From Deltaproteobacteria bacterium (GTDB lineage Bacteria; Desulfobacterota; Binatia; UBA9968), in the NCBI GenBank assembly GCA_016874755.1, contig VGTH01000009.1:68933-132932 (forward strand): 64,000 nucleotides of DNA, in the 5' to 3' direction. The position numbers and the translations under genes were made by a program. Below are positions 7,219-64,000 of the stretch, piece after piece; positions within the stretch are counted from its first letter, which is position 1; each line of letters begins with the position of its first letter. Under the pieces are notes generated by a model. The model was not told where the DNA came from and searched no databases. It was given only the letters and a program-made list of their open reading frames with translations.

Positions 7219-7656
7219 CTAGGCGCGCTGCTGCGCCTGTTGTTGGGCTTCGCGCCGTCTCGCACGGCGGCCTTTTTTCGGCGCCGCGACTTTTTCCTCG
7301 GCACCGACCACCAGCTCGATAATCGAGACCGGCGCGGCGTCGCCGCGGCGGATGCCGATCTTGATGATGCGGGTATAGCCGCCGGGGCGGTCTTTGAAGC
7401 GCGGCGCGATGGTGTCGAACAGTTTGCGCACAACCAGCTTGTCTTGCACGATCGCCAGCGCCTGGCGGCGCGCGTGCAAACTGCCTTGTTTACCGAGTGT
7501 GATCACACGATCGGCCCAGCGCCGCAGCTCCTTGGCTTTGGCATCGGTGGTTTGAATTTTTTCTTCGCGCAACAGCGCCGTAACCAAATTGCGCATGAGC
7601 GCCCAGCGATGGCTGGAGTTGCGGCTTAGCTGCCGGCCTGACTTTAGGTGACGCAT
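7219..7656 (-). CDS. rplQ: 50S ribosomal protein L17
   Basis: L17 is a 23S rRNA-binding protein near the peptide exit tunnel. The conserved N-terminus ([20 protein letters not shown]) and the central [20 protein letters not shown] block are present. At 145 residues it is longer than the usual 115-130, with an Arg/Gln-rich extension at the C-terminus ([16 protein letters not shown]). It starts 3 bases after rpoA and is the last gene before the operon terminator, the standard position in the alpha operon. Confidence 0.97.
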
Positions 7657-7659
7657 GGC

Positions 7660-8688
7660 TTAAGCGGTCTCTTTCTGCTGGGCGCGCTTGCGCGCGTCTA
7701 TCTCTTCACGCGGCGGAAAGTGGTCGACCTTCATGCCCAGCTCCAAGCCCATTTCGCGCAGGATCTCCTTGATCTCGTTGAGCGACTTGTGGCCAAAGTT
7801 CTTGGTCTTGAGCATTTCCTGCTCTGATTTCTGCACCAGCTCGCCGATGTATTTGATATCGGCGTTTTGCAAACAGTTTTGCGAGCGCACGGAAAACTCT
7901 AACTCATCGACGCTGCGGAACAGATTGTCGTTAAGCGGAATCGACGGCCCATCGTCGCGCTTTTCGGCGCGCGGCTCGTCCTGAAAGTTGACGAAAATGC
8001 TCAGCTGGTCTTGCAAAATCTTGGCGGCGTAGGCCATGGCATCGTCGGGCTTGACGCTGCCGTCGGTGTGCACTTCAAATACGATGCGGTCATAGTCGGT
8101 GCGCTGGCCGACGCGCGCGTTGGTGACACTGAAGTTTACTTTGCGCACCGGCGAGAAGACCGCGTCGATGAAAATCGTGTCCACCGGCAGGTTTTCTTCC
8201 TTGTTGCGCTCCGCCGGCACGTAGCCGCGGCCCAGCTTGGCGATCATTTCCATTTCCAACTTGGCATCGCGCGACAGAGTGGCGATCTTATGCTCGGGGT
8301 TGAGCACTTCGATGGACGGCGGCGCAATGATATCCTTCGCCGTCACCACGCCAGGCCCCTTGGCTTCGATCTTCAATGTTTGCGCCTCGCCCTCATGGGC
8401 GCGCAGGCGCACTTCTTTCAAATTCAAAATGATATCGGTGACGTCCTCGGTAACGCCGGCAACGGTCGAGAACTCATGTAGAATGCCTTTGATGCGCACG
8501 GCGACGATCGATGCGCCCATGAGCGAAGACAAGAGGATGCGGCGCAGCGAATTGCCGATGGTCTGGCCATAGCCGCGCTCAAAGGGCTCAGCGTAAAACT
8601 TACCGTACGTGGCGCCCAGGCTCTTTTCATCCACCTCCAATTGCTTCGGTTTAATCAACTCCTCCCAATGTTTATACATGATGGACAT
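7660..8688 (-). CDS. rpoA: RNA polymerase alpha subunit
   Basis: RpoA (342 residues) nucleates RNA polymerase assembly. The N-terminal dimerisation domain (about 1-235) shows the conserved [17 protein letters not shown] motif. After an acidic linker, the C-terminal domain (about 265-325) carries the DNA/activator-contacting helix-hairpin-helix block SVRSQNCL, then [14 protein letters not shown]. It lies between rpsD and rplQ as in most bacteria. Confidence 0.98.
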
Positions 8689-8709
8689 GGTTTCTCCCCG
8701 CTATCCGAA

Positions 8710-9336
8710 TTACTTCGAATACAACTCGACGATCAATTTTTCGTTTATGGGCATCGTAATGTCGCTGCGCGTGGGGAAGATTTTGATGCGCCCGCTAAAC
8801 GATTCGCGGTCCAACTCCGCCCAATCCGGCACGCCGCGGCGCTGTGCCCCTTCGAGCGCGGTCAACACGCGGCCCATCTGCCGGCTCTTTTCTTTGATGG
8901 AAATGACATCGCCCACGCGCACGGAATACGAAGGAATATTGACCTTCTTGCCGTTCACCAAAATATGCCCTTGGCGCACCAGGGTGCGCGCCTCGGCGCG
9001 CGAGCTGGAAAAGCCAAGCCGGTAGGTGGCGTTGTCAAGGCGCCGTTCCAGCAAAATCAACAGGGTCTCGCCGGTAATACCTTTAGTACGCGCCGCTTCG
9101 GCAAAGGTACGGCGAAATTGATTTTCCAATAGGCCGTACATGCGCTTGACCTTTTGTTTTTCGCGCAGCTGAATGCTGTACTCGGAAAACTTCGGCCGCC
9201 CTTGGCCGTGCTGCCCTGGCGGATAGTTGCGCCGTTCGATGGCGCACTTGTCGGAATAGCAGCGCTCACCCTTGAGAAACAGCTTTAAATTCTCGCGCCG
9301 GCATAGGCGGCACACGGAATCGGTGTATCTAGCCAA
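8710..9336 (-). CDS. rpsD: 30S ribosomal protein S4, zinc-type
   Basis: S4 (208 residues) is a primary 16S rRNA binder and assembly initiator. The N-terminus contains four cysteines at C9, C12, C26 and C31, the zinc-binding form. An S4 RNA-binding domain follows ([20 protein letters not shown], then [14 protein letters not shown]). The C-terminus ends ELYSK as usual. It lies in the alpha operon between rpsK and rpoA; S4 commonly represses this operon, but the mRNA site was not resolved here. Confidence 0.97.
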
Positions 9337-53611: not shown

Positions 53612-53687
<76 letters not shown>

Positions 53688-53703
53688 ACTGTCCTCGCGT
53701 TGC

Positions 53704-53770
53704 TCGGAATTTCAAATTGCAAATCTCAGATTCACCAACGATTTGGAATCTGGAATTTTCGATTCTGTAA
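53704..53770. repeat. Dispersed AT-rich intergenic repeat, copy 2
   Basis: Its first 15 bases (53704-53718, TCGGAATTTCAAATT) are identical to 10216-10230. More degenerate copies of the same AATTTC/GAATCT motif follow in both orientations. It lies between tRNA-Lys and tRNA-His. Confidence 0.55.
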
Positions 53771-53786
53771 TCCCGCTTGGCGGGTA

Positions 53787-53864
53787 TGGGGTGAGTGAAG
53801 GGACTTGAACCCTCAACCCCTGGAACCACAATCCAGTGCTCTAACCAGTTGAGCTACACTCACC
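53787..53864 (-). tRNA. tRNA-His (GTG)
   Basis: The acceptor is GTGAGTG/CACTCAC with the extra 5' G (position -1) opposite discriminator C, diagnostic of tRNA-His. CCA is encoded. The anticodon GTG lies in the loop TTGTGGT. Confidence 0.95.
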
Positions 53865-53879
53865 GCATCCAAAACGTTC

Positions 53880-53956
53880 TGGCGCGCCAGAAGGGATTCG
53901 AACCCCTGACCTACGGCTTAGAAGGCCGTTGCTCTATCCAGCTGAGCTACTGGCGC
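53880..53956 (-). tRNA. tRNA-Arg (TCT)
   Basis: The acceptor is GCGCCAG/CTGGCGC with discriminator G and encoded CCA. The anticodon TCT lies in the loop CTTCTAA. Confidence 0.95.
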
Positions 53957-53966
53957 TTACCAAAGT

Positions 53967-54043
53967 ATGAAGGATGAAAGCGGAAGGAGGACCGGCCCGG
54001 GGCCCGTCTCTTTCTCATCCTTCATCCTTCATAATTCATCCTT
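53967..54043. repeat. ATGAAGG heptamer repeat in inverted arrangement
   Basis: ATGAAGGATGA (53967-53977) is matched by its reverse complement TCATCCTTCAT (54015-54025), which continues into further TCATCCTT units to 54043. A related run lies at 56796-56811 upstream of amt. It fills the spacer between tRNA-Pro and tRNA-Arg. Confidence 0.55.
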
Positions 54044-54046
54044 TGA

Positions 54047-54123
54047 TGGTCGGGGCGAGAAGATTTGAACTTCCGACCCCCTGCGCCCAAGGCAGGTGCG
54101 CTACCAGTCTGCGCTACGCCCCG
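54047..54123 (-). tRNA. tRNA-Pro (TGG)
   Basis: The acceptor is CGGGGCG/CGCCCCG with discriminator A and encoded CCA. The anticodon loop CTTGGGC reads TGG at positions 34-36. It is the first gene of the Pro-Arg-His-Lys tRNA run. Confidence 0.93.
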
Positions 54124-54142
54124 TCAAAATAAACAGAAGTGC

Positions 54143-54170
54143 ATTCTACACGGGAGAGGCTTTAAATCAA
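54143..54170 (-). promoter_or_regulatory. Sigma-70-type promoter of the tRNA-Pro-Arg-His-Lys unit
   Basis: On the minus strand TTGATT (54165-54170) has a 16-base spacer to TAGAAT (54143-54148). The expected start lies about 13 bases before the tRNA-Pro 5' end. Confidence 0.6.
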
Positions 54171-54203
54171 CCCTAAATGTCACGTTCAGCTTCGCGCCGC
54201 GCC

Positions 54204-54950
54204 TCACAAACGCGCAGCGCTGCGACTCTCGCTGCGTCGCTTAGCGCGGCTGGCCCGGGGGATAAATTCGGAGAGAAAACGCTCGCTATAATATTTTAGC
54301 GTCGGCGCATAGTTTTGCGTATCGGAGAGAATCTTTTCGGGGACGACATACGGCGATTGCGCCAGCTCTTTGGATCGTTCGTCGACCCAGCGCACGATCA
54401 TGCGCGGGGTCACTTCGAGATGAAACTGCAGCGCGTAGATTGTTTTGCCTATACGGAAAGCCTGATTTTTGAAATTCACCGACGAAGCGAGATGAATGGC
54501 ACCGGGCGGCAGCTCAAACCCGTCGCTATGCCACTGAAACACGGTGGCGCTTTCCGAAAGATAACCCAGCAGAGAATCCACCTGTCCATGGGGTGTGATT
54601 GAGATCGGACTCCAACCGATCTCTTTCACGGGGCCACGATAAACCGTCGCGCCCAACGCCGCGGCGATGAGCTGTGCGCCGAGGCAAATGCCCAGCGTCG
54701 GCACATGGTCGTCAATGGCCGCGCGAATGATCCTTTTTTCCCAGCGCAAAAACGGAAAAGACTCTTCGTCGCCGACACTCATCGGACCACCAAGCAAAAT
54801 CAATGCGCCAACCCGCTCCCAATCCTCAACCGGGATCTCGTCGTGAAATAGACGGATAATCCGATAGCGCACCCCTTGCTTTTCCAAAACGTCGGCGAAG
54901 AAACCAAGCTCTTCGAAGGGATCGTGCTGAAAAACTAAGACCTCTTCCAT
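54204..54950 (-). CDS. Class I glutamine amidotransferase (GMP synthase-like)
   Basis: This is a 248-residue stand-alone glutaminase-type domain. The nucleophile C89 lies in LGICLGAQ, and the partner residues H177 and E179 lie in [21 protein letters not shown] forms the oxyanion loop. It lacks the ATP-pyrophosphatase domain of GMP synthase, so it belongs to the GuaA-like group whose substrates include gamma-glutamyl compounds. The ATG at 54948-54950 was chosen over an extension of 20 codons. It lies downstream of amt on the same strand, compatible with nitrogen metabolism. Confidence 0.85.
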
Positions 54951-55099
54951 AGAGTCATGCCGAATCGCCAGTGTTGAGCATTGACGTTTCTGATCCGTCT
55001 CCACCCTCAACGCTCAGCTATCGAGAGCCGGATTTACGGACACTGCTTTGTTTGGCTCGTTTATTTGTTCAGTTCGCTCCTTCACCTAACGTGAGTCGC

Positions 55100-55143
55100 C
55101 GAGCCGGGCTGGCACCGGAAAAAGCTGGCGGCAGCCCGACTCG
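55100..55143 (-). other. Hairpin 3' of amt
   Basis: CGAGCCGGGCTG (55100-55111) and CAGCCCGACTCG (55132-55143) form a stem with one mismatch, 11 bases after the amt stop. No T-run follows on the minus strand, so it is a possible 3' stabiliser or a Rho-assisted end, not a clear terminator. Confidence 0.35.
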
Positions 55144-55154
55144 CCTTGAGCGTT

Positions 55155-56762
55155 TTAGGACTTGCTCTCGGTGGCAAACACCGCAGCGGTTTGGCGAGCT
55201 TGTTCCATCGCCACACCGCTGCCGCCTCCGCCTCCGAAGGAACGAGACATTCCAGAAGTTGTCGAAACGAAATCAGGGTAGGCGATATTGCCGTGCTCAC
55301 CGATATCCAAACCCTCGATCTCTTCTTCGGCGGAGACGCGAATACCGATGGTGGCGTCGAGAATCTTCCAGAGTATGAAAGAAGTAATCAAGACAAAGGC
55401 GCCGACTCCGACGACGCCGATCAACTGGGCAAACAGCAGCTTGGTGCCGCCACCGAAGAACAGACCGTTGCCCGTCGTATTGGGTGTGAAATGGTCCTGA
55501 GCGAACAGGCCCACACAGATCGTTCCGAAAACTCCGCACACCAAGTGCACCGAGGTCGCACCGACGGGGTCGTCGATTTTAATTCTGTCGAAGAACAGTA
55601 CTGAAACAACGACCAGAACACCGGCCATCAAGCCGATGATCAGCGAGCTCGGGATGCTGACGAAGGCACAAGCCGCAGTGATGGCTACCAGCCCGGCCAA
55701 AGCGCCGTTAAGGATCATCGTCAAATCCGGCTTTCCTAGTAGCATCCACGCCGCGATGGAAGCCGAAATCGCAGCCGCTGCGGCGGCAGTGTTGGTCGCA
55801 ACGGCGATACGGCCAATGGCGCCAGCATCGGCCGCCATGGTGCTGCCAGGATTGAAGCCAAACCAACCAAACCAGAGGACGAAGACACCGATGGTGGCCA
55901 TGGCGATGCTGTGCCCCGGAATCGGCAGAGGTTTGCCGTCGCGATTGTATTTGCCAATGCGCGGACCGAGTAGCATGGCACCAGTCAGAGCGGCCCAACC
56001 GCCGACGGAATGCACCACCGTCGAACCAGCAAAATCGAACATACCGAGCTTGGCAAGCCAACCGCCACCCCAGATCCAGTGTCCAACGATGGGATAGATT
56101 AACGCCACCATGACAAACGTGAATACATAAAAGGCGCCAAACTTGACGCGTTCGGCCACCGCCCCTGAGACAATCGTCGCCGCGGTCGCCGCAAACACCA
56201 ACTGAAAGAAAAATTTCGTCCACAGCGGTACGCCGGTCCAGTTGATCGACGAGTAAACACCTTTGTAAGCGTCACCCATGGCCGGGCTATTGTCGGCGCC
56301 GCCGACAAACCACAATCCCTGCGTGCCGAAGAAAGCGTTGCCATCGCCAAACATGAGGCCCCAGCCGAGCACGAGGAAAGCGATCGAGGCGGCGGCGAAG
56401 ACAACGAAGTTTTTGGCGAGAATCGTCACAGTATTTTTCGCCCGGCACAGCCCCGACTCCACCGAGGCAAACCCCAGGTTCATGAGAAACACCAGCATGC
56501 CGGCGATCAGCACCCAGACCGTATCGATCGCCACCTTGGCGCCGCCAATCTGATCGAGCAAACCCTGAGTGAACTGCGCCGGCTTGGCTGCCGGATCTTC
56601 CTTCTTCGCTGGTTCCGCAACCGGAGCAGCGACAGCAGGGGCTTGAGCTTTAACCCCTTCCGGTGCGACGGCGTCCTGAGCCAATGACAATCCCGTGAAA
56701 AACATCGCGCTGAGCGCAAGCGCGCAAGCAAAAACTTGCAAACTAAACTTAGACAATTTCAT
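55155..56762 (-). CDS. amt: Ammonium transporter Amt
   Basis: Amt (535 residues) conducts ammonium across the inner membrane. A signal peptide (about 1-28) and an unusual Ala/Pro/Lys-rich stretch (about 29-60) precede eleven predicted helices. The pore histidines are in VVHSVGGWAALTGAMLLGPR and GATSVHLVCGVFGTI. The long soluble N-terminal stretch is uncommon, since most Amt proteins start directly after the signal. It lies 49 bases after the PII gene, and both are behind a sigma-54 promoter. Confidence 0.95.
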   Translation of the reverse strand: MKLSKFSLQVFACALALSAMFFTGLSLAQDAVAPEGVKAQAPAVAAPVAEPAKKEDPAAKPAQFTQGLLDQIGGAKVAIDTVWVLIAGMLVFLMNLGFASVESGLCRAKNTVTILAKNFVVFAAASIAFLVLGWGLMFGDGNAFFGTQGLWFVGGADNSPAMGDAYKGVYSSINWTGVPLWTKFFFQLVFAATAATIVSGAVAERVKFGAFYVFTFVMVALIYPIVGHWIWGGGWLAKLGMFDFAGSTVVHSVGGWAALTGAMLLGPRIGKYNRDGKPLPIPGHSIAMATIGVFVLWFGWFGFNPGSTMAADAGAIGRIAVATNTAAAAAAISASIAAWMLLGKPDLTMILNGALAGLVAITAACAFVSIPSSLIIGLMAGVLVVVSVLFFDRIKIDDPVGATSVHLVCGVFGTICVGLFAQDHFTPNTTGNGLFFGGGTKLLFAQLIGVVGVGAFVLITSFILWKILDATIGIRVSAEEEIEGLDIGEHGNIAYPDFVSTTSGMSRSFGGGGGSGVAMEQARQTAAVFATESKS

Positions 56763-56811
56763 GGTTTCCTCCCAATGAGTTTCATCATTCCGCCCTCATC
56801 CTTCATCCTTC

Positions 56812-57207
<396 letters not shown>

Positions 57208-57211
57208 TTAC

Positions 57212-57227
57212 AGCAATGCCGGTGCCA
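57212..57227 (-). promoter_or_regulatory. Sigma-54 promoter of glnK-amt
   Basis: On the minus strand TGGCACCGGCATTGCT is a perfect match to the sigma-54 consensus TGGCAC-N5-TTGCW. The predicted start is about 50 bases before glnK. It is the expected control for nitrogen-limitation (NtrC) induction. NtrC sites were not resolved upstream. Confidence 0.9.
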
Positions 57228-57366
57228 GCACGGTCTGATCACCGCGAACCAGCCACTAAATATTGGAATCGTTAGAGATTATATGGCGGAGAGAAAAACT
57301 CTGGGAACGCGCGGCGAAGCGAGAGTTGCCTAGAATTTGGAGCGGCGCGATTAATAACTAAGCAGG

Positions 57367-57555
57367 TTACGTATCGATCTCGCGTAGAATCGCTTGGGTA
57401 AATTTCATGTCCGTCGGACTACCGCCGAGACCCGCGCCAGATAGGCGTTTTGCACAAGCACTTTTTTCCAACGCACTCTCGATCCGGCCAGCGGCGACCC
57501 GCTCGCCGATATGGCGCAGCATCATGACCGCCGCCGTAATCATCGCCGATGATGG
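57367..57555 (-). pseudogene. C-terminal remnant of an isocitrate/isopropylmalate dehydrogenase
   Basis: On the minus strand a 62-codon piece reads PSSAMITAAVMMLRHIGERV, AAGRIESALE, LGGSPTDMKFTQAIL, and ends REID-T-stop at 57367-57369. This matches the end of the NAD(P)-dependent isocitrate/3-isopropylmalate dehydrogenase family (helix with the LRHIGE motif, then LGG and FT.AIL). The rest of the gene, including all catalytic residues, is gone. It lies immediately after the nitrilase stop in the same frame, so a deletion joined the two. Confidence 0.75.
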
Positions 57556-57573
57556 TCTGCAATGAAAGAAAGG

Positions 57574-58377
57574 CTAAAGCCGCCGGTGCGCTAGCGCCGG
57601 CAGCTCGGCGCGAATTTTGGCGAGGTGCTCAAAGTCGAGTTCCGCGGTGATCACGCCTGGGCCATCTGGCAACTCCGCCAACACCGTGCCCCAGGGATCG
57701 ACGATCATCGAGTGGCCGTGGCATTCGAAACTCTTTGGCGCTTTGCCGAATTGATCGGCGGCAATGACATACGCCTGATTTTCGATGGCGCGGGCGCGCA
57801 GTAAAGTTTCCCAATGCGCTTGGCCGGTAAATGCGGTAAACGCGGCGGGGACAAAAATCAAATGTGCGCCCTTGTCAGCGAGGCCGCGGTAGAGCTCGGG
57901 AAAGCGCAGATCGTAGCAAACCGTCAAGCCCATCGTGCCCAGCTCGGTTTCGGCGGCAACCACCTCCGCGCCATGCGCCCGCGTGTCCGATTCGCGCAGC
58001 GACACGCCGTTGGCAAGGTCGACGTCGAAGAGATGCACTTTGCGATAGGTGGCCAGCAACTTGCCATTGGGGTCGAATAGCAAACTCGTGTTGAAAGCTT
58101 TATTGCTGCCGGGAATCTCTTCGAGGATCGAACCCGCAAGAAAATAGATCCGCAGCTCGCGCGCCAGGCTCGCCAAAAATTCCGATGCAGGCCCGGGGAT
58201 ATTTTCCGCTGCGCCGCGTTCTTCTTTCTTGTTGCCGCGCCAGATAAACACTTCGGGCAACACCACCAAGCGCGCGCCCATTCGCACGGCTTCGCGCACC
58301 CAGCGTTCGGCTTCTTTCAAATTGGCCGCCTTGTCATCCGAGGCGACCATCTGCACGGCGGCAGCAGTGAATTTCAT
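57574..58377 (-). CDS. Nitrilase-superfamily carbon-nitrogen hydrolase (Nit/omega-amidase type)
   Basis: This is a 267-residue cytoplasmic hydrolase. The catalytic Glu-Lys-Cys triad is E42 (VVLPEVF), K113 (TYRKVHLFD) and C154 (LTVCYDLRFPELY). The LFD-D pattern after the lysine is typical of Nit1/Nit2-like enzymes, which hydrolyse deaminated glutathione or alpha-ketoglutaramate. The exact substrate is not decided. It lies near the glutamine amidotransferase and Amt genes. Its stop is directly followed by the remnant of a dehydrogenase gene. Confidence 0.88.
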   Translation of the reverse strand: MKFTAAAVQMVASDDKAANLKEAERWVREAVRMGARLVVLPEVFIWRGNKKEERGAAENIPGPASEFLASLARELRIYFLAGSILEEIPGSNKAFNTSLLFDPNGKLLATYRKVHLFDVDLANGVSLRESDTRAHGAEVVAAETELGTMGLTVCYDLRFPELYRGLADKGAHLIFVPAAFTAFTGQAHWETLLRARAIENQAYVIAADQFGKAPKSFECHGHSMIVDPWGTVLAELPDGPGVITAELDFEHLAKIRAELPALAHRRL

Positions 58378-58423
58378 AGGCTTGCGACGTTGAGCGATGG
58401 AACCGTTAAACCGTGAACGCGAT

Positions 58424-59260
58424 TTACCGGTTGAGGAACACCGGGCACGGGCTATTTCTCAAGACGTATTCGGTGGTGCTGCCGAGCACCATATTGATAA
58501 TGCGCCGGTGGCCATGGGCGCCGATGAAGAGCAGATCGTAATCGCCTTCGTTCAAACGCTCGATGATCTTCTGTTCCGGATAACCACGATCGGTTTCGTA
58601 ACGCACGGCGATCGAGTACGAGTTCAGGTATGATTTCGCCTGCCGAACATTGTCCTCCGCAAGCTTGGCCTCTCTGGCGATGCACAGCACGGTGAGCGGC
58701 AGTTTGAGCACGGTGCAAAACTCGGCCGCCGATTCCATCGCCGAGCTGGCGCGTTGGCTGCCGTCGTAGGCGAGCAAGGGTTTCTGGATAACGCTAAAAT
58801 GCTTGGTGGAAACGAAGATCGGCCGCGGGCATTTACGCACGATGCTCTCCGCGGTCGTGCCCAGCAGGCCGGTCGTAAAATCTTCATTGACACCCCGATG
58901 ACCAATGATCACCAAGTCGGCAACCTTCGAGCGCTCGCAAATCTCGTTGGCGATGATTCCGGTATCAACCACTGTCTGATGTTTGATGTTTTTCGCCTGG
59001 CAGCGTTGCACGAAGTCTTCGAGAATCATCTTGCCGCGATCTTCGAGGATCGCGCGCATTTTGGTCGACAGATCCAGATAGGGCTCCGCGCCCAGCGATC
59101 CCGAGATATCGTGGAAGAAAGTTCCTTCGAGGGAGATCGAGTCAATGACATGTTGACCGGTCAGCATGCCGTCGAACTGCTCGGTTATCCACAACGCGTA
59201 ATCGAGCGCGCCGTACGAGTGTTCCGACCCGTCGAGGGGGATCAAGATATTTTTGATCAT
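58424..59260 (-). CDS. Tandem-domain universal stress protein
   Basis: This is a 278-residue protein with two UspA folds, about 1-150 and 155-278. Both keep the nucleotide-binding pattern: GHRG then GLLGTTAE in the first, and GAHG-N9-GSTTEYVL in the second. The N-terminus is MIKNILIPLDGSEHSYGALD. ATP binding and a stress or dormancy role are family-level knowledge. It lies 46 bases upstream of the nitrilase on the same strand. Confidence 0.9.
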   Translation of the reverse strand: MIKNILIPLDGSEHSYGALDYALWITEQFDGMLTGQHVIDSISLEGTFFHDISGSLGAEPYLDLSTKMRAILEDRGKMILEDFVQRCQAKNIKHQTVVDTGIIANEICERSKVADLVIIGHRGVNEDFTTGLLGTTAESIVRKCPRPIFVSTKHFSVIQKPLLAYDGSQRASSAMESAAEFCTVLKLPLTVLCIAREAKLAEDNVRQAKSYLNSYSIAVRYETDRGYPEQKIIERLNEGDYDLLFIGAHGHRRIINMVLGSTTEYVLRNSPCPVFLNR

Positions 59261-59419
59261 CGTTTGCCTCCTTTGCTAGCGGCTGCGGCACACATTCTTG
59301 TGGCGACGCTACCTTAACAACCCGAAGCAAATTTACAAGGCAAAATTGTTCCTTGCGGGCGAGGGATCAACGGTGGTAGAAGCCAGCGATAAGAGCGCTT
59401 TCTAATAAGGAGAAACATC

Positions 59420-59532
59420 ATGGCAGCACAATTTATCGACCTTTTGAAAATCCCCGAGCTTTCGCCAAGCGCGATTTAGATAAAATCAAAGCGCCGGACG
59501 AGAAGAAGGCCAGAGCGCGAGCCGAAGGTTAG
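59420..59532 (+). pseudogene. Frameshifted mini-gene with good ribosome site
   Basis: ATG at 59420 follows AAGGAG at a normal distance and reads MAAQFIDLLKIPEL, then hits a stop at 59477-59479. Restoring one base at about 59460 would give a 37-codon frame continuing FAKRDLDKIKAPDEKKARAR and ending at 59530-59532. The next gene has its own AAGGAG right after. I do not recognise the product. It may be a decayed leader gene or an assembly error. Confidence 0.35.
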
Positions 59533-59560
59533 GACAAACCTATTAAGGAGATCACGTCCA

Positions 59561-59854
59561 ATGATCTACGAAATCGCCATCCAACAAGTCGACCCGGCCA
59601 AACGGGACGAATACATCAAGAACTTCGGCAAGACCTTGATCGACGCCAATTTTGCCGGGTCGCATTCGATAAAGATTTTTGAATGCATCGAAGATCCGGC
59701 AAAAGTAATTTTGCTGATCGCCTGGGACAGCGTCGAGGCGCACACGCAGCATCGCGGCACGCCGGCGCACAACCACATGCGCGAAGAAAACTCGCGCTAC
59801 CAAACCGCCAAGAGCGACGGTGCCCATTACCAGCTGCACGAGATCAAGCCTTAG
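59561..59854 (+). CDS. Antibiotic-biosynthesis-monooxygenase (ABM)-like small protein
   Basis: This 97-residue dimeric alpha-beta barrel type protein starts MIYEIAIQQVDPAKRDEYIK. A middle strand IKIFECIEDPAKVILLIAWD and the final HYQLHEI fit the ABM/DUF4188-like fold. AAGGAG lies ten bases before the ATG. Members act on quinols, haem or other aromatics without cofactor, or have no enzyme role. It lies 71 bases upstream of a bicupin dioxygenase, so a part in aromatic-compound metabolism is plausible. Confidence 0.75.
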   Translation: MIYEIAIQQVDPAKRDEYIKNFGKTLIDANFAGSHSIKIFECIEDPAKVILLIAWDSVEAHTQHRGTPAHNHMREENSRYQTAKSDGAHYQLHEIKP

Positions 59855-59925
59855 CTTTAGGCGCAACATTGCTTGACAGCTCTAAGCCCCCTCTGTATTC
59901 AACAGAGAATTATTGGAGGGACTGC

Positions 59926-60915
59926 ATGAATCTTGATGAGCTCAGCCAGTGGATGAAAGACCGCAACTTAAAGGGCCACTGGGAACATTCGGAGTGGTCG
60001 CAAAAGGTCCAGCCCCATCTCTGGAAAGGCCAAGAAATCTTGCAGGCGCTCAACTGGTCCGGCGAGTTGATCACCACCGGTGAAGCGGGGCGCCGCACCA
60101 TTCAGATGCGCAACCCCGGACTTTCCGCCGGCATGACCAATACCGTGCATATCTCAGTCCAGCTCGTGAAACCCGGCGAAGTCGCCGCGGCGCACCGCCA
60201 CACGGCGGCGGCGATTCGCTTCATCGTCAAAGGGACGCCCAACGCCTACACCGTGGTCGAGGGGGAGCGTTTTCCGATGTTCGAAGGCGATTTCATTACG
60301 ACGCCGAACTGGACCTGGCATGATCATTTCAATGACGCGACGGAGCCGGTCATGTGGCTCGACGGGCTGGACGTAAGACTGGTCACCCACCTTGGCGCAA
60401 TGATTCAGGAGAACTTCAAAGCCGCGCAGCAACCGGTGGAGAAACCCGAGAGCTATTCGTCAAAGGTTTTCTCCCATGCGCGGCCGAGCTGGATCAAGAA
60501 CGCCTTCGACGCCCCGCCCTATCGCTACCCTTGGGAAGAGACCAACGCGACGCTGCAATCGCTCAAAACCAGCGCCGGCGACCCCTACGACGGAATTCTT
60601 TTGGAGTACACCAATCCGGTCGACGGCGGCCACACCTTGCCAACTTGCTCTTGCTCGATTCAGCTTTTGCGACCCAAAGAAAGAACCAAGACCCATCGCC
60701 ACACCAGCACCACCGTTTACTACGCGTTTCGCGGCAGTGGTATGACCAGAGTCTCGGCCAACGAACTGCGCTGGGACAAGACCGATATTTTCGTTGTGCC
60801 ATCGTGGCAATGGCACTCCCACGAAAACGCGAGCAACGAAGACGCCATCCTGTTCTCGATCAGCGATCGACCGGCGACTGAATCGCTCGGGCTTTACCGC
60901 GAAGAAACAGAATAA
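59926..60915 (+). CDS. Bicupin dioxygenase (gentisate 1,2-dioxygenase-like)
   Basis: This is a 329-residue protein with two cupin domains. The first has AAAHRHTAAAIRFIVKG and TPNWTWHDHFND. The second has RTKTHRHTSTTVYYAFRG and PSWQWHSHENAS, so both metal-site histidine sets are kept. Overall sequence order matches gentisate or 1-hydroxy-2-naphthoate dioxygenases, Fe(II) enzymes that cleave aromatic rings. The start ATG has GGAGGG five bases upstream; the open frame runs further back but overlaps the ABM gene. The exact substrate is unknown. Confidence 0.85.
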   Translation: MNLDELSQWMKDRNLKGHWEHSEWSQKVQPHLWKGQEILQALNWSGELITTGEAGRRTIQMRNPGLSAGMTNTVHISVQLVKPGEVAAAHRHTAAAIRFIVKGTPNAYTVVEGERFPMFEGDFITTPNWTWHDHFNDATEPVMWLDGLDVRLVTHLGAMIQENFKAAQQPVEKPESYSSKVFSHARPSWIKNAFDAPPYRYPWEETNATLQSLKTSAGDPYDGILLEYTNPVDGGHTLPTCSCSIQLLRPKERTKTHRHTSTTVYYAFRGSGMTRVSANELRWDKTDIFVVPSWQWHSHENASNEDAILFSISDRPATESLGLYREETE

Positions 60916-60937
60916 TTGGGCGGTGTTTTGATCAGCG

Positions 60938-60990
60938 AAGGGTAAGACCCCGTAGGATGCTCTTGCCCTTGCTTCTTTCCCTCTTCTTTT
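60938..60990 (+). terminator. Probable terminator of the bicupin gene
   Basis: AAGGGTAAGA (60938-60947) pairs with TCTTGCCCTT (60961-60970) with one G-T pair, and a pyrimidine run ending in TTTT follows. The remaining spacer to 61199 shows no gene. Confidence 0.55.
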
Positions 60991-61199
60991 AAGGCCGCGC
61001 ACTACAGCCGAACATTGCTTTCCCACGGCAGGTCTCGCTGCGTCCGCAAGCAGTTTGGCCCAATTGCGGGAACTTTTGCCCGCGAACTAGCCTTACCGCG
61101 CCCGCTTGCCGCGATCTGGTCTCAATTTTCTGCACACCGCGCCGATAGACAGCTTAGGCAATTGATTGCCGACAATGAATTGGTTGACGGAGGGAAATG

Positions 61200-62366
61200 A
61201 TGTCTATCGGTGATGAACAGCAAGATGTGCCCAACAGCAGCGAAGGACAGCTTGCTGCCGAATCCGGTCCAGCGAAAGAACGCACCGCCAAGCCCAAGCA
61301 ATCCGCCAAAGCCCACCTGTTCGTGACCATTACTCACTGGGCTATGGTCATTCTGCTGCTTTTGGCGTTGCTTTCGGGCATGCGCATCGGCTGGGGCTAT
61401 ACGGAAAGCCCGCTCGGAGGCGAGCAAGGTCTGTGGGCTAGCTTTCTAAACAGCATCGCTCCTAAAGGCGATTTGTTTGGCTTCAACCTCATTGACCTCC
61501 ATGTTCCATTGGCGCTCTTCATGATCGCCGTCTCGGCCGTCTACGCGATCTACATGTTCCGCTCGCGTGCATCCAAGCGCCTGCGCGTCACCGGCAAGGA
61601 CATGGAGAAGCTCCAAAAAGGCTTGCGCGCAGGAAACTTCTGGCGCAACAAAGCTGCGCTCTGGTCGGCAAACTTGATTGTTTACTGGGTTGCGTTCGTG
61701 TTCGTCATCGTGCTCGTTGGCACCGGCTTGGCGATGTACTTTCTCAACTCCGGCCTCGCCGATTTTGGCCCCATGGAGTATGTCGGCGGCTACTCGACGG
61801 TGCGGTTGCTGCACGGCCTGATCGCCTACCTGTTAATCCCCTACACGATTCTGCACTCTCTATTACAATGGTTCTTCGGCCGCTTCTGGTCGATTTTCAA
61901 AGCCCAGCTCTACCGTCCGCATATGCGTGCCGGCGCCATCGGTCTCGTGTTTGGCGTTATCTGGTTCGGCTGGCTTTACGCGTGGAACGAAAAGCCGCTG
62001 AGCATGACCGTGGCGCGGCTGCCGGCGACCGTCTCTCCTCCCGTCCTTGACGGCATCGAGAATGAGGCCGCCTGGGAATACGTCAAATCCGTCCCCGCCC
62101 AGCGTGCGGTGCTCTTGCGCACGCCGGCGAAAATTCAGCTTTGGTTCAATGAGCCGCTTGAATCAAAGTATTCAAGCCTGAGCGTTACGGATGAGGCGGG
62201 CAAAAGCATTGCGCTTTCCGGGCTCGAAGTCGGCGGCGACGAACCGAAACGCATTACCGCCAATCTGAGCGCTCTCCCCGCTGGTCGTTACATAGTTAAA
62301 TACCGCGTGCTTTCCGTCGATGGCCACATCGTTCAAGACCAGTTCACTTTTACCATCAAACAATGA
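61200..62366 (+). CDS. Cytochrome b561-like membrane protein fused to CopC domain
   Basis: This is a 388-residue protein. A charged cytoplasmic N-terminus of about 35 residues precedes four to five membrane helices with histidines placed as in bacterial di-haem b-type cytochromes: FVTITHWAMVILLLLALLSG, IDLHVPLALFMIAVSAVYAI and VRLLHGLIAYLLIPYTILHS. The periplasmic C-terminus (about 275-388) is a CopC-type beta-barrel (IQLWFNEPLESKYSSLSVTD, LPAGRYIVKYRVLSVDGHIV). ATG at 61200 was chosen for its spacing from GGAGGG. The next gene is a CopD fusion overlapping at ATGA. Together they suggest copper handling coupled to electron transfer (inference). Confidence 0.85.
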   Translation: MSIGDEQQDVPNSSEGQLAAESGPAKERTAKPKQSAKAHLFVTITHWAMVILLLLALLSGMRIGWGYTESPLGGEQGLWASFLNSIAPKGDLFGFNLIDLHVPLALFMIAVSAVYAIYMFRSRASKRLRVTGKDMEKLQKGLRAGNFWRNKAALWSANLIVYWVAFVFVIVLVGTGLAMYFLNSGLADFGPMEYVGGYSTVRLLHGLIAYLLIPYTILHSLLQWFFGRFWSIFKAQLYRPHMRAGAIGLVFGVIWFGWLYAWNEKPLSMTVARLPATVSPPVLDGIENEAAWEYVKSVPAQRAVLLRTPAKIQLWFNEPLESKYSSLSVTDEAGKSIALSGLEVGGDEPKRITANLSALPAGRYIVKYRVLSVDGHIVQDQFTFTIKQ

Positions 62367-64000
62367 CTGAGCTAGCTGCACGGGTGCGCTTTCTTCATCT
62401 AGTCGCATCGGTGCTGCTGGTTGGGCGCTTCGCGTTCGCTTGCTTCATCTTGCGCGGCTATCCGTCGCTGGCGTTGGTCACTCAACATGAAAAGCTCCAA
62501 GCTCGTCTGACGGCATTCTACTTGACGATAGCTTTCATAACTCACCTTGCCGCGCTGATCTTACAAGCGAGTTTGGTCAACGCGACGGACGTGCAAGCGG
62601 TCCTCTCGTTTGTTACGAGCACGCGCTATGGCAGCGTTTGGCTCACACGCTTGATCTTACTTTGCCTCCTGGCATTGGTGGGTCGATTGGCCGGCGGCAA
62701 AACCGCCGCGGCGCTCTTGCTGAGCGCAGCCCATCTCGCAACTCTGTCCCTATCGGGTCACGCAGCCGCAGCCGAGGGATCAGCCTTCGCTCTGCAAACG
62801 AGCGCGGACGCGCTGCACCTCTTAGCGACGGGTATATGGTTGGGCGGCCTCCTGCCCCTTGCGCATTTGCTTTCTCGCGCTAGCGCAGCCGACGACGATA
62901 AAGCATTTTCTCTGCTTCAAACCAGCGTGCAGCGTTTTTCCAATTGGGCGTTGTTGTGTGCCGTTCTCATTGTCGTCACCGGCAGCGCCAACGCTTGGAA
63001 TCTTGTCGGCGGCTTTCCCCAACTCTTTGGCAGTGAATACGGCAGGCTCTTGTTAGGCAAACTGGCTTTGCTGTTGCCGCTTCTCGCAGTCGCGGCGCGG
63101 AACCTTCGCCGCGTGAAACCCAGTTTGAGCGCACCCATCGCGAGTAACGGCCAATTCATTGAAAGCGTCTTGCGACTCCGGCGCAACGTGCTCCTCGAAA
63201 CGACACTCGGTATGGCCATTCTACTGATCGTTGGTCATCTCGGCGTCACGCCGCCAGCGCGCCATGTGCAGCCGGACTGGCCTTTCCCCTTTCGCTGGGA
63301 TTGGAGCGTGCTCGACAAAAGCGCCAAGGCTCGCGCGGAGTTTGACCGCGGCGTGGTTTGGGCCGTGGTCGGCGCCGGTGCGCTCCTGTGCCCGCTGCTG
63401 CGACGGCGGCGCCGAACCGTTACGACGCTCATCGGCGTCTCCGCCTTGGGATACGCGGGCTACGTGGTGAACGACCTTGTCGTCATCGACGCCTATCCAA
63501 CCACTTACAAACGGCCGGGAGTTTCCTACAACGCGATTTCCGTCGCCAACGGCGGCGCACTGTACCATGAGAGCGGCTGTGTTTCGTGCCACGGCGTTAA
63601 CGGCTATGGCGACGGGCCGAACGCCCAGGACCTCAATCCCAAGCCCGTCGACCTCACTGCGGCTCACGCCAACGCGCATACGGCCGGCGATCTGTACTGG
63701 TGGTTGAGCTATGGCGTGAAGCCGACGTCGGCGATGCCTGGCTTCAGCGAAAGTTTGAGTGAAGAAGAGCGCTGGGACCTGATCAATTACCTGCGCGCGC
63801 TGTCGAGCAGCAAGCGGGCTCGCGGGCTGGCACCACTGATCGAAGAAAAGCCGTGGCTGGTGGCGCCGGATTTCGCTTATACAACCGACAAAGGTGAAAG
63901 CAGAACGCTGCGCGATCACCGCGGCAACAAGATTGTCTTGCTCGTCTTGTTGAACTTGCCGAGCGCCGAGCGACGCCTGCGCGAGTTGGCCATCGCCATG
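62363..64000 (+). CDS. CopD-cytochrome c-redoxin fusion protein, runs off the window
   Basis: The frame is open from ATG at 62363 to the last base (546 codons). Residues 1 to about 290 are a CopD-type membrane domain with about eight helices (LHLLATGIWLGGLLPLAHLL, LLGKLALLLPLLAVAARNLR). After another helix pair, a mono-haem cytochrome c domain follows with C406-V-S-C409-H410 and a later AMPGF methionine ligand region (TSAMPGFSESLSEEERWDLI). The visible end (PDFAYTTDKGESRTLRDHRG, NKIVLLVLLNL) looks like the start of a thioredoxin/SCO-like domain. The gene overlaps the CopC fusion by 4 bases, so the two gene products probably act together. Confidence 0.85.
   Translation, partial: MTELAARVRFLHLVASVLLVGRFAFACFILRGYPSLALVTQHEKLQARLTAFYLTIAFITHLAALILQASLVNATDVQAVLSFVTSTRYGSVWLTRLILLCLLALVGRLAGGKTAAALLLSAAHLATLSLSGHAAAAEGSAFALQTSADALHLLATGIWLGGLLPLAHLLSRASAADDDKAFSLLQTSVQRFSNWALLCAVLIVVTGSANAWNLVGGFPQLFGSEYGRLLLGKLALLLPLLAVAARNLRRVKPSLSAPIASNGQFIESVLRLRRNVLLETTLGMAILLIVGHLGVTPPARHVQPDWPFPFRWDWSVLDKSAKARAEFDRGVVWAVVGAGALLCPLLRRRRRTVTTLIGVSALGYAGYVVNDLVVIDAYPTTYKRPGVSYNAISVANGGALYHESGCVSCHGVNGYGDGPNAQDLNPKPVDLTAAHANAHTAGDLYWWLSYGVKPTSAMPGFSESLSEEERWDLINYLRALSSSKRARGLAPLIEEKPWLVAPDFAYTTDKGESRTLRDHRGNKIVLLVLLNLPSAERRLRELAIAM

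Follow-up and report, generated by a model that had tools for sequence, protein, structure and literature searches.

Near the end of a 64,000-nucleotide stretch of contig VGTH01000009.1 from a Deltaproteobacteria bacterium (hereafter the window), two overlapping genes on the forward strand join copper domains to haem domains. The downstream gene (gene 2) is well supported as a member of a conserved protein family, the long CopD proteins, in which a CopD membrane part is followed by a haem c domain, a thioredoxin fold free of a Cys pair and a C-terminal HxH tail. Judged from sequence and gene order, the protein called CopD in the extended pmo operon of methanotrophs is one clade of this same family. 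The upstream gene (gene 1) encodes a cytochrome b-CopC fusion with an apparently damaged copper site, so far found in this genome alone. We propose, at about even odds, that the pair consists of a membrane copper-handling protein of the long-CopD family with its own haem c and a CopC anchored through a cytochrome b, and that copper handling may be coupled to electron flow by the pair.

The first-pass annotation of this region reported two genes overlapping as ATGA, and both frames were present, with the start of gene 2 overlapping the stop of gene 1 at positions 62363-62366. Gene 1 is a complete open frame, and gene 2 continues past the window and stops 336 bases beyond it. We followed it in L005, an assembly stretch that covers both genes and the contig sequence past the window, in which gene 2 occupies positions 7296-9269 (L005 7296 is window 62363); the assembly as a whole comprises 5.56 Mb in 101 contigs. 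The claimed joining of copper domains to haem domains was borne out by Pfam matches above cut-off in each gene. In gene 1 these were cytochrome b561 (53.5 bits against a cut-off of 30.1) and CopC (73.5 against 23.3), and in gene 2 CopD (PF05425, residues 189-292, 81.3 bits against 32.1) and cytochrome c (PF00034, 47 bits against 21.3). Stricter NCBIfam equivalogs were reached by neither gene (NF033814 for CopC, 58.1 bits against 95 in gene 1; NF033808 for CopD, 174.7 against 195 in gene 2), and AhpC-TSA matched residues 501-617 of gene 2 with 21.0 bits, below its cut-off of 26.

Gene 2 was compared with its relatives in an alignment of 24 rows: the window sequence, two from its genus, seven from Rokubacteria and 14 of alphaproteobacterial origin. 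Left out of these rows were L056 (the same gene as L036), L026/L009 (from G005, where gene 2 is split over frames), additional copies, complete or nearly so, in G446, G447 and G448, the CopD-only proteins L010-L014, and genomes matching only to about residue 537 (G533, G456, G498) or 495 (G599). The three-part layout is common to all 24 rows, and R9, H152, W159, K233, E279, H301, W306, the CxxCH motif, H439, M458, H655 and H657 are invariant among them; H133 is kept in 23, with a gap in the remaining row. With CxxCH and a distal Met in every row, the middle domain is a putative c-type cytochrome throughout, and in the AlphaFold model of gene 2 (mean pLDDT 81) it aligned to a Kuenenia cytochrome with Z 15.4. 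The C-terminal His tail reads HxH, or HxxH in three rows. Within the CopD part, residues R9, H12, H133, E138, H152, W159, K233 and E279 align with R10, H13, H135, E140, H154, W161, K230 and E270 of E. coli YebZ, respectively.

Gene 2 ends in a predicted thioredoxin fold: Foldseek matched the model of this part to DsbE, ResA, Bcp and AhpE (best E-value 1.4e-4), and VIA-align gave Z 13.3 against DsbE over 134 residues and 13.2 against ResA. This end had been described as thioredoxin/SCO-like at first pass, a description of which the thioredoxin half stands and the SCO half was rejected on sequence. Neither outcome named at first pass as refuting the annotation, a lack of CopC/CopD matches or an end lacking the thioredoxin fold, was obtained. 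PF02630 (SCO1/SenC) had no match in gene 2 at E≤0.1, nor in the relatives L007, L032 and L036 at E≤1. Neither CxxC nor CxxxC follows the haem domain in any of the 24 rows, and the thioredoxin part has no Cys at all in 11 of them, the window included, and one or two in the rest. Since no row offers such a Cys pair, neither thiol-disulfide enzyme activity nor a SCO role is expected of the domain. SCO structures were also absent among the 50 VIA-align rows shown, which by itself excludes nothing. H606, considered as a SCO-type His ligand, was dropped because that column holds His in only 13 of the 24 rows.

A co-occurrence with methane monooxygenase genes, raised as something to survey in the first-pass annotation, is real for the alphaproteobacterial relatives of gene 2, both as operon neighbours and by the AmoA/PmoA family PF02461. 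Of 149 genomes sampled from the Methylocapsa family, 12 carry gene 2 when the threshold is E≤1e-80; relaxing it to E≤1e-30 raises the number of matching genomes to 42, most of the additional ones matching by CopD alone. PF02461 was found in 11 of the 149 genomes and in none of 14 control genomes, and all 11 fall within the 12 holders of gene 2 (Fisher p 9e-16, uncorrected for kinship); in the twelfth holder, G508, a pmoD-like gene adjoins gene 2 and PF02461 had no match. By tblastn, the order PmoD-like, CopC, gene 2, PCuAC recurs in all ten loci of what we call the pmo clade. PF02461 lies on the contig and strand of gene 2, within about 4 kb, in six of these ten genomes, and is on a different contig or missing in the other four. 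In one locus of the clade, Pfam identifies AMO, Monooxygenase_B, CopC and PCuAC as neighbours of gene 2; the protein that follows Monooxygenase_B matches no Pfam family but carries Cx7MxH, the PmoD motif (PMC6189053). Four other alphaproteobacterial copies (L034-L036 and L057) have CopC upstream of gene 2 and no PmoB- or PmoD-like match in the stretches examined; PF02461 matches in full in three of their genomes and as fragments in the fourth, G450.

In alphaproteobacterial methanotrophs, the extended pmo operon has been described as pmoCAB-pmoD-copC-copD-pCuAC (PMC6189053). Because copC, PCuAC and pmoD-like neighbours flank it in all ten clade loci, gene 2 matches the CopD of that operon. The two share the three-part protein, the invariant residues with the His tail, and a CopC gene directly upstream. 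In the present genome, however, PF02461 is absent, L005 has no match to PCuAC or PmoD, the protein belongs to a separate clade, its thioredoxin part is free of Cys, and its CopC is fused to cytochrome b. PmoB likewise had no match in L005, the stretch in which pmoD was sought. The operon gene is called copD in PMC6189053, the accessible text of which does not mention a cytochrome in it. The family is known by the name CopD, and a description of its haem and thioredoxin domains, or of the CopD-cytochrome c-thioredoxin layout, was not recognised in the literature searched, through searches that were partly aimed elsewhere and reached mostly papers outside subscription.

Gene 2 is no local oddity, to judge from its 23 aligned relatives in this genus, in Rokubacteria and in the methanotroph-rich Beijerinckiaceae. 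A short-peptide scan of 84,980 species genomes, which detects close relatives only, returned 11 loci: one in a Deltaproteobacteria metagenome-assembled genome, seven in Rokubacteria, and three in Hyphomicrobiales or Methylocapsa, including Methylocapsa palsarum. Among 58 genomes comprising its own and relatives, gene 2 was present at E<1e-100 in four (G000, G002, G003 and G005, broken over several frames in the last). An even sample of the phylum gave a single match at E≤1e-30 in 395 genomes, the window's own, and none of the 53 plasmid records that match parts of gene 2 covers 80% of it. The tree resolves four groups with support of 99-100, each a single change: the pmo clade, the other alphaproteobacterial copies, Rokubacteria, and the window's own genus. 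Two long branches meet in this tree and its root is not reliable.

Several individual copies and related proteins were also recorded. The G005 copy (L026 3684-5739), split over several frames, is either a pseudogene or the product of sequencing error. In Rokubacteria, gene 2 stands beside a further cytochrome c and a CusF_Ec protein with a membrane anchor (L032 7126-10324), near a YncE-like propeller and CopC (L027 10304-11664), and near CopC with other neighbours named by eye (L074 1789-6583). On the opposite strand of L032 (2552-4646), CopC, a CopD with a CxxCH end and a further CopC form another CopD-haem arrangement, read partly by eye. A Burkholderia cenocepacia replicon (L055 5677-6882) encodes a cytochrome c joined to a region similar to the C-terminal part of gene 2, at 27% identity across residues 364-651; it has no long CopD and adjoins what by eye seem to be ABC transporter genes. 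The window's own genome also encodes a short CopD-like protein head to head with COX2 (L003 163-1839).

The make-up of gene 1 can be read by comparison with a 663-residue protein, L038, in a genome from another family of the class (G037). By Pfam, L038 is a cytochrome b561 followed by an ethylbenzene-dehydrogenase (EB_dh) domain, and residues 34-301 of gene 1 are 52% identical to it. The likeness reaches the first EB_dh residues (DGIENEAAW), where CopC starts, so that CopC stands in gene 1 in place of the approximately 310 residues of EB_dh in L038. All four His of the gene 1 cytochrome part are also His in L038 and could suffice for two b haems. According to the alignment, the join leaves an EB_dh stub and removes both the signal peptide and the His1 of CopC. 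The predicted mature start is His in all eight CopC relatives compared, whereas gene 1 reads AWEYVKS there. The histidine brace of CopC is formed by the N-terminal His after signal peptide cleavage (PMC7529816). Because this His is gone, the CopC of gene 1 is expected to bind brace-type Cu(II) weakly or not at all. The internal Asp-x-His is kept as D375 and H377, the latter being the sole His within the domain. The best sequence match of the CopC part was the CopC of M. trichosporium OB3b (PDB 5ICU; E-value 6.8e-14), which also came first, tied with other CopC chains, in alignment to the modelled part (Z 12.6); 5ICU has the N-terminal His brace, whereas the gene 1 domain is membrane-tethered and lacks it. 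The AlphaFold model of gene 1 has a mean pLDDT of 71, with low confidence at residues 264-301, and PHROGs gave no match for the gene.

Gene 1 might owe its form to an accident, an in-frame deletion that fused a cytochrome b-EB_dh gene to copC and left little or altered function. In a survey of 148 genomes of the class, 20 matched gene 1 at E≤1e-8: one by the fusion, one by the cytochrome part and 18 by the CopC part alone (seven of these 18 with their loci inspected and 11 judged from the matched range alone). All 16 CopC loci inspected were without a same-frame match to the cytochrome part; L044, L045 and L047, where CopC lies within long open frames, were checked as possible further fusions, and their frames are not joined to a gene 1-type cytochrome. 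This rarity, together with the stripped signal peptide and His1 and the EB_dh stub, speaks for an accident. However, the reading frame stays open for 389 codons, neither the four haem His nor the CopC fold has been lost, third-position G+C is coding-like in both halves (0.74 and 0.62), and the start-stop overlap with gene 2 is in place, so we consider an accident possible but on balance unlikely. The fusion is also known from one genome's assembly alone, as would be the case had two genes been merged in assembly. We judge such an error very improbable: the two parts are joined in frame, precisely where mature CopC starts and on the side predicted to be periplasmic, and gene 2 and several neighbours occur together as in the sister genome G003. 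There, a secreted CopC behind a rhodanese gene occupies the place of gene 1 upstream of gene 2. The order gene 2, SBP, DsbH-like protein and 424-residue protein is common to both genomes, and the shared downstream or nearby genes other than CopC and gene 2 are 56-82% identical. A Rieske dioxygenase pair is near gene 2 in both, at a different position in G003; the G003 locus gave no match to the upstream cupins or to three further L005 genes.

From architecture, conserved residues, kinship and neighbours, which the sequences themselves provide, we infer the following redox mechanism. The helices of the gene 1 model and the periplasmic nature of EB_dh and CopC would place CopC on the periplasmic side, together with the haem c and thioredoxin domains. 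CopD would take up copper at its conserved His on that side, and haem c would exchange electrons with CopD-bound copper, most simply reducing Cu(II) to Cu(I), and so set its redox state. The redox-dead thioredoxin domain and the HxH tail would then hold the copper or pass it to a periplasmic cuproenzyme, which could be particulate methane monooxygenase (pMMO) in methanotrophs and another here, perhaps a CuA oxidase. The cytochrome-b-tethered CopC would replace the secreted CopC of relatives, and may serve as a docking domain through which haem b passes quinol-derived electrons to gene 2's haem c. CopC-CopD fusions have a precedent in YcnJ of Bacillus subtilis (CopC-CopD-YtkA), in which the two domains act together; His24 of its CopC and His295 of its CopD are needed under copper limitation, and His295 is conserved in YebZ (PMC13344008). 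By our reading, His295 probably corresponds to the residue aligned with H152 of gene 2. YcnJ differs in that the accessible text describes no haem domain, and in that its CopC His24 is present and needed, whereas the equivalent His is gone in gene 1.

Several observations weigh against a copper-handling pair as proposed here. Loss of the brace would weaken any copper delivery by gene 1. PF02461 is absent from this genome, from all three further holders in its family (G002, G003 and G005) and from all seven Rokubacteria. A full-length gene 2 was seen in neither G001 nor G004, two of four further genomes from the genus, so the gene is dispensable there. Finally, a copCD mutant of M. trichosporium apparently falls outside the copper switch, and copCD is seemingly not critical for copper uptake, according to the part of a review available to us (PMC7558416). 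As uptake seemingly does not depend on copCD, a role as importer and nothing else becomes less likely; the mutant, as far as that passage goes, does not bear on a redox or hand-over role.

The same mutant would suit a different account, in which gene 2 is mainly an electron conduit and not a permease, with a b haem in CopD and electrons passing from quinol to haem c and on to a periplasmic copper enzyme. The CopD model aligned to CydA of cytochrome bd with a best Z of 20.0 (root-mean-square deviation 3.5 over 276 residues) and to the membrane subunits of alternative complex III with Z of about 16, a modelled likeness that may point the same way. However, the likeness to CydA comes solely from a predicted model; helical models without clear relatives typically reach a best Z of 14 by this method, as its own note states; sequence homology between CopD and CydA was tried and rejected, hhalign giving a probability of 0.4 against one E. 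coli CydA sequence; and in YcnJ and YebZ the conserved His of CopD is taken to be a copper residue, as far as the accessible text of PMC13344008 goes. We therefore regard a role mainly as conduit as improbable. Little credence is likewise due to the pair being a SCO-like assembly factor that loads CuA of cytochrome c oxidase. COX2 is present in the genome, and in B. subtilis oxidase function is supported by YcnJ, which itself combines CopC and CopD (PMC13344008, in the part available), but gene 2 has neither a SCO match nor a Cys pair, and SCO1 matches three times elsewhere in the genome, on other contigs. Moreover, COX2 was not found in the incomplete assemblies of the gene 2 holders G005 and G444, and no oxidase genes were noticed by eye beside gene 2 at the loci inspected. 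An oxidase is nevertheless a possible client of the pair. As a long shot, long CopD proteins, including that of the pmo operon, might be cytochrome-bd-like conduits with haem b and haem c that drive copper reduction or feed pMMO-type enzymes, the Cys-free thioredoxin domain being a His-based copper hand-over site and, in this genome, a second cytochrome b being wired in through the CopC docking domain.

The positions of the two genes and their parts are collected below.

Table. Positions of the gene pair and its domains (window coordinates unless L005 is named)
Feature	Position	Strand	Basis
Gene 1, b561-type cytochrome b fused to CopC, 389 aa	61197..62366	+	Open reading frame, Pfam
Cytochrome b domain PF01292, residues 41-231, with His47, His102, His206 and His220	61317..61889	+	Pfam; each His matched in L038
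EB_dh stub 'PPVLDGIENEAAWE', residues 281-294, where likeness to L038 stops	62037..62078	+	Alignment
CopC domain PF04234, residues 296-387, without signal peptide or N-terminal His	62082..62357	+	Pfam, alignment, model
Asp375-Gly-His377 (SVDGH), putative remnant of the CopC copper site	62319..62327	+	Alignment, model
Gene 2, CopD - cytochrome c - predicted thioredoxin fold, 657 aa in total	62363..64000 (window part)	+	Open reading frame, Pfam
CopD membrane part, residues 1-302	62363..63268	+	Pfam, alignment to E. coli YebZ
Cytochrome c domain, residues 394-480; CxxCH at 63578-63592; Met458 invariant	63542..63802	+	Pfam, alignment
Cys-free thioredoxin-fold domain, start, residues 488 on	63824..64000	+	Predicted structure, alignment
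C-terminal H655-x-H657 tail of gene 2, outside the window	L005 9258-9266	+	Alignment

Rfam at gathering scores returned only a tRNA in window positions 54000-64000, and a promoter and terminator scan of L005 5800-9500 gave nothing above shuffled sequence. Four consecutive tRNA genes (Lys, His, Arg and Pro) lie at window 53612-54123, near an ammonium transporter and P-II pair, the last two named by eye.

The supply of copper and electrons to pMMO is unsettled, and loading, assembly or electron-delivery components yet to be identified may be missing from the current picture, according to the accessible part of PMC6189053. A protein of the pmo operon that combines a CopD part with a haem c is clearly a candidate. 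Copies in genomes where pMMO was not found, namely this one and those of Rokubacteria, let the function of gene 2 be separated from that of pMMO, and the brace-less CopC fused to cytochrome b provides a natural test of what CopC does without its usual hold on Cu(II).

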